Assembly (NCBI GenBank): GCA_024220525.1
Contig: JAMYWO010000405.1
Span: 1-30,708 of the forward strand
DNA from: Cochliopodium minus
Lineage: Eukaryota; Discosea; Himatismenida; Cochliopodiidae
Reading direction: 5' to 3'
DNA: 30,708 nucleotides
The notes beneath the pieces are model-generated. The model ran no database searches. It was given only the letters and a program-made list of their open reading frames with translations, and was not told the origin of the DNA. Below, piece by piece: positions 1 through 30,708 of this stretch (position 1 is its first letter; every line of letters starts with the position of its first letter). The position numbers and the translations under genes were made by a program.

Positions 1-170
1 TATTTATTTTATTTATTTTATTTATTTTATTTATTTTATTTATTTTATTTATTTTATTTATTTTATTTATTTTATTTCTAATTTATATTATTATTTATTT
101 TATTTATTTTATTTATTTTATTTTATTTTTATTTTATTTTATTTTATTTTTATTTTATTTTTTATTTATT
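1..170. repeat. 9-bp microsatellite TTTTATTTA at the left edge, inside a RuvBL2 intron
   Basis: Bases 1-77 are uninterrupted copies of TTTTATTTA. After a short break (78-97) it resumes and degrades into TTTTA/TTTTTA units up to about 169. It lies just downstream of the exon 8 donor at 175-176 (minus strand), so it is intron sequence. The first six bases (TATTTA) complete the partial unit (TTT) on which the window ends. Confidence 0.95.
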
Positions 171-176
171 TTTTAC

Positions 177-2676
177 CATTTGTTGTAATGATGAGCAAAC
201 GGTCCAAGAGATCAGTGGGAATACCATGAGGAGAAGGATATTCAGTTCCTCTTATTTTGCTTTTACCTCTGTTTGTAGCCATAACAACTATTGGTGAAAA
301 CTCATCTTCTAAAGCCCTGTTTAAAAATGAAAAACACTCTATGTCCAACATGTGTACTTCATCTATGAACAACACCCCTATACAAAACAAAAAATATTAA
401 AAAATAAATCAAAATAAAAATAAAAAATAACAATTTAAAATAATTAACAAAAAATAAAAAATTAACAAAAATAACAAAAATAACAAAAATGTTGTTAAAA
501 TTAACAAAAATTAAAAAATTAAAAAATAAAAAATTAAATTAAAAATAAAAAATTAAAAATAAAAATAATAAAAATAAAATCAAAATGAAAATGATTTAAA
601 ATGAATAAAAAATAAAAAATAAAAAATAAAAAATAAAAAATAAAAAATAAAAAATAAAAAATAAAAAATAAAAATGATTTAAAATGAATAATTAAATTTT
701 AAAAAAATACCAGAGACAACGGTTGCTTTTTCTTCTTCTTTCCATTGTTGTATTTTAGTGTTAATTTGTTGTCTCACTTCTGGTTTTATTTCCCCTGTGT
801 CCCCCGTAAATAATGCCAAAAACCCTATTTTGTGTGAAAAAATTAAAATAATTTAAATTAAATTAATCAATTTAAATGAGAAATTAAATTTTAATAATTA
901 AATTTTATAATTAATTTTTATAATTAAATTTTTTATTTTTAAAAAAAAAATAATGAAAGAAAGAACCTTGGGTTCGAGAGTTGATGACGTCGATTTCGTG
1001 CAAAGAAACAGTGTGAACAACATCTTTTCTCTTTTGTAATTCTCCTTCTGGTGTTTGAACAAATTTGGTTGTTGACCCTTTAAAAAAAATAATGATTAAA
1101 AAAAATTAAAAAAAAAAATCAAAAAAAATCAAAAAAATCAAAAAAAATAATAAAATCTGTTGACACCATATATACTTTAAAAATATACAAAGATAATAAA
1201 TAAATAATAAAAAATAAAAAATAAAAAATAAAAAATAAAAAATAAAAAATAAAAAATAATAAGTAATAAATAATAAATAATAAGTAATAAATAATAATAA
1301 ATAATAAATAAATCATTAATTAATTATTATTTAAAATTTTAAAAGAAAAATAAAATACCCATAACTTCAAAATCACTAACTCTGGAATAACTTCTACCAA
1401 GCTTGGTAACTCTTTTTTTTGTTTACAAATTATTTAATTTAAATAATTTTGTTGAAATAAATTAAACTTCAAAATAAAATATAAATTTTAATTTTTACTT
1501 TTATTTTATTTTATTATTTTTGTTTTATTTTTTTTTTACTTTTATTTTTTTATAATTTTAATTTTTTTTTTTTACCTTCCAGTAGATTTATCAATGGAGA
1601 TGACATCACCAGCGGAGACTTTTTCTTTAACCAATTCATCTATTAATTTTTGACCCAAATCATATATTGTTTCCATGTCTGTAGTCTTTATCGTCAATTT
1701 TCCTATTTTCACTCCCTTTTCAAAAAAAAAACCAAAAATGAAAAAATTAAAAAAATAAAAAAATTTTAAAAGCAAAAATAAAAAAATTAATTAAAATAAA
1801 AAAAATTAATTTTAAAAAAATAAAAAAAAATAAAAAAAATTAATTTTAAAAATAAAAAAAAAAATAATATGAAAAATAAAAAAAAATAAAAAAATGGGTG
1901 AAAAATAATACATTGGAAGAGACGGGACGATCAACTTGAATTTCGACAACTTCACCTTCAATGATTTCCACAGTTTCTTTGATATGAACAGCAATACTTT
2001 TACGGAGAGCTTGAGTGAGGGCTTCTGTTTTGCTCATATCCAAAGAAAATATTTCACTTCCTGCCAACATCGTGAATGGTGTTTCATTTCCCAATTCCTG
2101 CGACATCGCCATCGCTATTGCTGTCTTTCCTGTTCCTATTTCCTCATTTTTGCAAAAAATTAAATTAAATTTCTTTAAAAGATAATTAAAGTCTCAATAA
2201 GGTTTATCTAATTAAATCAAGTTGAGGAATTTTTCTGATTTAAATAATTAAACTTGAATTATATCTATATTTCAATTAACAATTATTTATAAGTCTTCTT
2301 TGTATTCAATTATTAAATCTCCTCTTTTTTGATGTTTATTGGAGAAAAGAACGATTTTTTTTTTTTACCAGGTTTTCCAGCTATCAAAATGGCTCTACCA
2401 GCTATCTTTCCTTCTTTGACCATTTTGGTCTTTAATAAAAAAATTTGAGATATTCAAATAATTTTCTCAATTAAATTATAAAAGGAGGAGATTTTTAAAA
2501 AGTTTTACAATGATTCCTGCTGATTTTCTTGCTTTTATTTGACCAACCATTCCTTGAGCGATATCTTTTACTTCTAATTTATCAGTGAGTCCCAATCCTC
2601 TGATATGCGTGTGAGGACCTATTCTTTCTATTCTTGTAACATCTTTCTCTTCAATCTTTGATTTTATATCCTCCAT
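177..2676 (-). CDS. ruvbl2: RuvB-like 2 (reptin) AAA+ ATPase, exons 1-8; gene continues past the left edge
   Basis: This is the ATPase that pairs with RuvBL1/pontin in INO80, SWR1/TIP60 and R2TP complexes in the nucleus and cytoplasm. Exons on the minus strand: 2676-2509, 2429-2369, 2135-1912, 1715-1576, 1411-1359, 1077-967, 824-711 and 377-177. The start codon gives [20 protein letters not shown], matching the family N-terminus. Walker A is GKPGTGKT (about residues 74-81), Walker B is LFIDEVHML (Asp about 296) and the sensor is ATNRG. All junctions are phase-consistent and the reading runs through residue 357 plus one base of the next codon. The C-terminal AAA+ lid is not to the left but at the right end of the window (30157-30543). 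The introns hold A/T microsatellites. Confidence 0.96.
602..672. repeat. A-rich microsatellite (AAAAAAT)n in a RuvBL2 intron
   Basis: About nine copies of a 7-bp unit (AATAAAA and its rotations) in the intron between exons 7 and 8. A similar array occupies about 1207-1258 in the intron between exons 5 and 6. Neither overlaps coding sequence. Confidence 0.85.
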
Positions 2677-3003
2677 TTTTGTTTTATTGTTCTTATCAAA
2701 GCAATTTTTTTTTTTTTTTTTTTGAAAGCATATTTGAATGAAAAGATTTCTTGAAAAATTAGTTTTAAATTTGTTCGAAAAGCATTATTCTCCTTTAAAT
2801 TGAATCTTAAAAAGACGATAAATAAAAAAGAAAATACCAAAAATATTTTTAATCATACAACAAAAAGTTTAAAAACAACAAGAAAGTGTAGAAGAATCCT
2901 CAAAAAAAAAAGGTTTCAAAAGATGTTGCAACAACTAAAAAAAAAAAATTAAATTTGTTATAAAATTGTTTAATAGTTGTTAATTAAGTTTTAAAAAAAA
3001 GAT
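2677..3003. other. Gap between RuvBL2 (5' side) and RGS-like gene (3' side)
   Basis: 327 bp of A/T homopolymers holding the promoter side of RuvBL2 and the 3' end of the RGS-like gene. Both genes point left. I see no ORF, RNA gene or clear motif beyond a long T-run at about 2706-2722, just upstream of the RuvBL2 start. Confidence 0.6.
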
Positions 3004-30072: not shown

Positions 30073-30156
30073 AACAAAAAAAATATCAAAAAAATGTACA
30101 AATATAAATTAAAAAAAAAAAATTTTATAAAATAAAAATAATTTAATTTTCTTTTT

Positions 30157-30543
30157 TCAATTATCATTGGTATCCATACTGTTTGATTTTTGGGTTTCAC
30201 TATAAAGAAATTGTTCTTGATATTCATTCAAAAATTGAACAGAACGATGAACATCAGAAAACAAAGAATAAACCTGGGTTTTTTGAAATAAAAAAAAAAA
30301 AAATTAAAAATTAAATAAAACAAAAAAATAAAAAATTTACTCTTTTTATATCCTCAACATCAACTTGTGTGGATTTTCTTTGAAGGGAAACCAAATAAGA
30401 AGAAGAAATGATTTGGATGGCATAACGGAGGGAAGTTTGCTGGGCGATTTTGGCCAAAAGATTTTTAGCATTCTCTGTAATTGATACATTTTCTTCTTCA
30501 CATCTTATTTGAATTATTTTTGCTATTTCCTCAGGTGAATAAT
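30157..30543 (-). CDS. ruvbl2: RuvB-like 2 (reptin), exons 9-10, C-terminal lid
   Basis: Exon 9 (30543-30341) and exon 10 (30273-30157, stop TGA) encode the rest of reptin: IQIRCEEENVSITENAKNLL, the arginine-finger region TSLRYAIQ, VEDIKRV, then YSLFSDVHRSVQFLNEYQ and a short polar tail. Exon 9 begins with two bases (AT) that complete the Asp codon opened by the single G left at the end of exon 8 (base 177). Added to exons 1-8 the coding length is 1392 nt, 463 residues, identical in length to human RUVBL2. No start codon or N-terminal half lies upstream at this end, so the exons belong to the gene at the left edge. The stop lies 84 bp from the convergent TOM1-like gene. Confidence 0.95.
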
Positions 30544-30635
30544 CTTTCAAAAACAATAAAAAAATTAATTTATTTTTAAAAGTAAATTAAGAATTCAATT
30601 GATTAATTTCTAATTTATTTTTATTTTTGTATTAT

Positions 30636-30708
30636 TTTTATTTTATTTATTTTATTTTTATTTTATTTATTTTATTTATTTTATTTATTTTATTTATTTT
30701 ATTTATTT
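30636..30708. repeat. 9-bp microsatellite TTTTATTTA at the right edge, same intron
   Basis: Bases 30661-30708 are five perfect TTTTATTTA units plus TTT, preceded by imperfect TTTTA/TTTTTA units. It lies between the window edge and the exon 9 acceptor of RuvBL2 at 30544-30545. Same motif and strand as the array at base 1. With the ends joined, the intron would be 341 nt as written, though array length is often collapsed in assemblies. Confidence 0.95.

Follow-up and report, generated by a model that had tools for sequence, protein, structure and literature searches.

The stretch of DNA analyzed, referred to here as the window, was the whole of contig C400, 30,708 bases on the plus strand. C400 is one of the 598 contigs of a genome assembly of 44,654,751 bases (about 44.65 Mb), and runs of N in several of these contigs suggest that they are scaffolds. 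As judged from the intron-bearing genes, formins, myosins, kinesins, proteasome subunit and nucleoporin-like gene that were seen, the source is a eukaryote. The contig is rich in A/T, with long simple repeats, and carries ordinary nuclear genes, namely those for RuvBL2, ribosomal protein S2, a proteasome subunit and a formin. Its sole N lies at position 26022. No tRNA was found in the window by ARAGORN in bacterial mode, and no Rfam match in the window reached the gathering score. The features that bear on the order of the contig are collected in Table 1.

Two further genes were observed. A rubrerythrin gene with introns lies at 5020-5590 on the plus strand, with a Pfam E value of 7.9e-20 on exons that were joined by eye; rubrerythrin in a eukaryote may indicate a low-oxygen habitat. 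The other, also on the plus strand, is a 754-aa open frame at 22051-24312 with CGVCGG-type cysteine-rich repeats near its end. This frame gave weak Pfam matches only, the best at E 0.015, and its repeats resemble those of some secreted amoebal proteins.

Table 1. Features of contig C400 at its two ends and around the single N.
Feature	Positions	Strand	Remark
RuvBL2 exons 1-8	2676-2509, 2429-2369, 2135-1912, 1715-1576, 1411-1359, 1077-967, 824-711, 377-177	-	
RuvBL2 exons 9-10 and stop codon	30543-30341, 30273-30157	-	right end of C400
RuvBL2 intron 8, 5' part	1-176	-	perfect (TTTTATTTA)n, 77 nt, at contig edge
RuvBL2 intron 8, 3' part	30544-30708	-	perfect repeat, 52 nt, at contig edge
Diaphanous-type formin, 5' part (GBD, partial FH3; P0122 residues 1-315)	24622-25988	+	cut at the N
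Single N	26022	.	probable false join of piece A (1-26021) and piece B (26023-30708)
MOSC-like gene, 3' part	26027-27610	+	counterpart of P0121 residues 1-116 missing

The RuvBL2 gene at the two contig ends

The initial annotation had described one RuvBL2 gene as split over both window ends on a single strand, and the exon model bore this out. Joined across 30708/1, the coding sequence is 1392 nt including the stop codon and encodes 463 residues, the lengths that had been proposed. All nine introns are GT-AG, intron 8 among them. The splice-site sequence also upheld the earlier reading of the codon at this junction: exon 8 ends with AAT G/GTAAAA and exon 9 starts with AG/AT TAT TCA, giving a split codon of G + AT for Asp. 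Intron 8 is made up of 176 nt at the left end and 165 nt at the right end, at least 341 nt in total. Since the other introns of the gene are 67 to 333 nt long, little missing sequence is needed at 30708/1.

The joined RuvBL2 was identical to a EukProt protein, P0001, at 463 of 463 residues. P0001 was taken as a de novo transcript from its Trinity-type record name (TRINITY_DN10370...), and among the other 119 EukProt matches listed, of 7993 that passed, identity was at most 71%. The domains TIP49 (3.1e-156) and TIP49_C (8.3e-23) were found in P0001, with the P-loop and AAA-lid in one 463-aa protein. The top PDB matches of RuvBL2 were solved RuvB-like 2 chains, including 5oaf_B (E 2.9e-203, query residues 9-460 to chain residues 12-462), and the exon 8/9 junction is ungapped in this alignment. 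The likeness is therefore to RUVBL2 (Reptin, Rvb2) of the TIP49 family, and the C400 protein showed nothing unusual.

A protein search of the genome with RuvBL2 scored 13 candidates, 9 of them at E 0.001 or better, and all 9 were on C400. This search found no RuvBL2 exons beyond C400 and no second exon set; the 53-nt exon 5 did not have a match of its own. A eukaryote is expected to have the paralogue RuvBL1, and RuvBL1 was absent from the results, so the sensitivity of the search is limited. Because the joined exons equal P0001 and the search placed every RuvBL2 exon that it detected on C400, position 30708 adjoins position 1 within the RuvBL2 gene, as had been claimed.

The two ends of C400 also consist of the same 9-nt repeat, and the last 40 and first 40 bases together form one perfect repeat. 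This unbroken register had been put forward as a further sign that the ends are adjacent. The perfect repeat was seen, but it is weak as an argument, since a register would match by chance in 1 of 9 cases and the repeat is common in the genome. A 36-nt word of it gave 419 + 456 overlapping matches in the genome; the reversed control (429 + 443) is uninformative, since the reversed word is again this repeat, shifted in phase. Contig C2 likewise starts with this repeat. The register was therefore rejected as proof of adjacency and carries little weight, while gene continuity is strong evidence. The terminal repeat can account for the assembly stopping at the ends of C400.

Two incomplete genes at the single N

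Position 26022 had been flagged as a spot to check, and rightly so. Two truncated genes meet there, both on the plus strand and each incomplete at the N. To the left is the 5' part of a formin, with matches to Drf_GBD (1.5e-8) and to Drf_FH3 (4.5e-13) over profile positions 13-115 of 193. The fragment showed 100% identity over 99% of the query stretch to P0122, a EukProt formin transcript protein of 1264 aa (TRINITY_DN332...). In the genome search, residues 1-315 of P0122 were placed at C400:24622-25993 and residues 917-1264 at C376:21464-23421, both on the plus strand. Both of these parts also matched P0122 by exact 15-residue words, and for residues 316-916 the genome search returned no separate match in the assembly. 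On C376, Ns reach up to 21375, just before the formin part, and are likewise present from 12066; the sequence was read at both edges of 12066-21375, as far as 12501 and again from 20236. Residues 316-916 would fall inside these Ns. An N in this genome may stand for an assembly gap or for a withheld stretch, which is closed to searches. Following the transcript across the Ns, we infer that the formin continues from 26021 towards C376:21376 and not to 26023. C376 may also be falsely linked between its own two parts. An intron of the formin, at window positions 25411-25502, contains a clean tandem repeat with a 17-nt unit (5.4 copies, 98% matches).

To the right of the N lies a MOSC-like gene. 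Its match to MOSC (E 0.001, 19.5 bits) is below the Pfam cut-off of 22.7, and the putative family name leans mainly on a relative, P0121, which carries MOSC_N and MOSC. The gene matches P0121 from residue 117 on. A genome-wide search at E<=1 gave no match to the N-terminal ~116 residues of P0121 (1-116). A MOSC_N match on C284 was considered as the missing half and was rejected, as C284 has, by eye, its own downstream MOSC-like exons at that same locus.

One way to read these two breaks together with the one in RuvBL2 is that a recent chromosomal rearrangement truly cut the genes and that intact copies lie elsewhere. If the Ns of C376 are a withheld stretch, a second copy of the formin 5' part could lie within them, which would suit this reading; otherwise no supporting evidence for it was found. 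The failure to see a second set of RuvBL2 exons goes against it, as does the join itself, which consists of an N rather than of assembled sequence. We consider such a rearrangement extremely unlikely.

Order of the two pieces and other readings of the contig

C400 very probably consists of two correctly oriented pieces that were placed in the wrong order, A-N-B, by a scaffolding error. The true order would be 26023-30708, then 1-26021, then C376 from 21376. On the chromosome, piece B would stand directly before piece A, the two meeting within intron 8 of RuvBL2, and the right part of C376 would come after piece A, with the formin gene spanning that junction. The pieces end within introns at simple A/T repeats or T runs, where a break in assembly would be expected. 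Read-pair links could then have set the two neighboring contigs in swapped order with their orientation kept, and chimeric pairs or long-insert pairs whose orientation was misread could produce such an order. Some scaffolders, for example SSPACE, represent a negative gap by one N.

The evidence for a misordered scaffold comes from the assembly sequence and from the transcript proteins P0001 and P0122, which support the order proposed. The join at 26022 is unsequenced, and a similar case was seen on C179. One of the two genes cut at the N, the formin, continues elsewhere (on C376); for the MOSC-like gene, the missing part was not found. With scaffold relocation errors, C400 shares sound pieces in the wrong order, a join made of N, and genes that are cut there yet whole in transcripts. 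It differs in that the pieces are simply swapped with orientation kept, and this imitates circular permutation. "Relocations" form a counted error class in at least one evaluation of scaffolders (PMC4262078).

The initial annotation had named a misordered scaffold, a circle and a tandem unit as possible causes, and of these the misordered scaffold is the one supported. If C400 were a genuine circular DNA of 30.7 kb, either extrachromosomal or organellar, which the assembler opened inside RuvBL2 intron 8, this would explain why the RuvBL2 gene and the repeat are continuous head-to-tail. Such a circle requires 26021 to lie beside 26023, where two genes break, and the C-terminal part of the formin is on C376. 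The sequence around the supposed circle is not continuous, as it is interrupted by the N and the formin leads out of it. The ordinary nuclear genes on the segment also argue against a circle. Mutually adjacent ends and a 45-nt terminal border are shared with assembled circular molecules (plasmids, organelle genomes, extrachromosomal circles), but the border of C400 is a common simple repeat and the N breaks the contig where two genes stop. We regard a circle as very unlikely.

If C400 were instead one unit of a 30.7 kb tandem array, its ends would be mutually adjacent, as observed. An array needs the same junction of 26021 and 26023 as a circle does, and the assembly holds a single set of RuvBL2 exons, although collapsed copies could hide. 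The probability of an array seems negligible to us. Both the circle and the tandem unit are disfavored as the main form because the formin runs from 26021 towards C376, an argument that would weaken if a withheld stretch in the Ns of C376 contained another formin 5' part.

The order A-N-B could also be real, with the halves of RuvBL2 joined by trans-splicing, since a transcript alone cannot tell cis from trans splicing. The formin would then need trans-splicing too, from C400 to C376. Moreover, the same repeat stands in both half-introns, and the GT-AG borders of all nine introns likewise speak against this explanation, which is barely credible.

With the scaffolding error as the preferred explanation, no DNA circle is required to account for the apparent cut in RuvBL2. 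We saw nothing unusual in the gene or in the DNA of C400. This removes a false lead, as there is no need to explain a circularly permuted window, a DNA circle or a RuvBL2 gene in two parts.

Single Ns and split genes on other contigs

A survey of formin FH2 matches found a gene split in circular order on 1 of 17 contigs, as counted by eye. On this contig, C179 (82,096 bases), a match to FH2 profile positions 3-94 on the minus strand stops beside the Ns at 46827-46945, and its continuation, profile positions 95-371, starts 5 bases from the right contig end, also on the minus strand. On translation, the two halves connect at an intron with the reading frame preserved, and the profile has no position missing between them. 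The stretch 46946-82096, read whole in 6 loci, contains just one N, at 59213. As judged from the genomic FH2 profile matches, 46946-59212 and 59214-82096 are swapped like the pieces of C400. The 119 Ns at 46827-46945 lie between the cut formin and a nucleoporin-like exon, whose match to Nucleoporin_C (8.6e-6, 25.2 bits) falls below the cut-off of 25.9. This 119-N join also looks false, because the formin continuation sits at the right end of C179.

The swapped segments are similar in size, 30.7 kb for C400 and 35.2 kb for C179:46946-82096. With two cases, this likeness may be due to chance, and long-insert pairs whose orientation was misread could also produce it. It would also fit excision circles of about 30-35 kb that exist beside the linear chromosome, with the single-N joins being real circle junctions in read pairs, an explanation that we hold to be highly improbable.

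Among 168,175 unique bases read (159,780 of them non-N), four single Ns turned up, two of them in the swapped pairs of C400 and C179; all four come from stretches picked for cause (the window, the formin matches and the hunt for Ns on C179) and give no unbiased rate. Two genes stop at the single N of C152 (44627): a cytochrome P450 exon, matched over profile positions 280-334 of 462, and a formin FH2, whose last match covers 145-195 of 372. On the same contig, positions 1-4000 are N throughout. The single N of C157 (75595) has an endonuclease V exon on its left side and a formin on its right side, where the first match is from FH2 position 215. No split gene was seen at the outer ends of C157, by eye. 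Since two of the single Ns are in swapped pairs, that of C152 stops two genes and that of C157 lies beside an incomplete formin, gene order, loss or fusion over single Ns should not be trusted here without other evidence.

The swap error is not general in the assembly, as surveys of two other families revealed no further split in circular order: none on the 17 contigs with myosin head matches and none on the 15 with kinesin matches, both counted by eye and with lengths looked up for a minority of these contigs. On C496, where no further myosin head match was found at E<=1e-5, a myosin head gene was observed at 353-1617 on the minus strand, its last match at profile position 239 and 353 bases from the left end.
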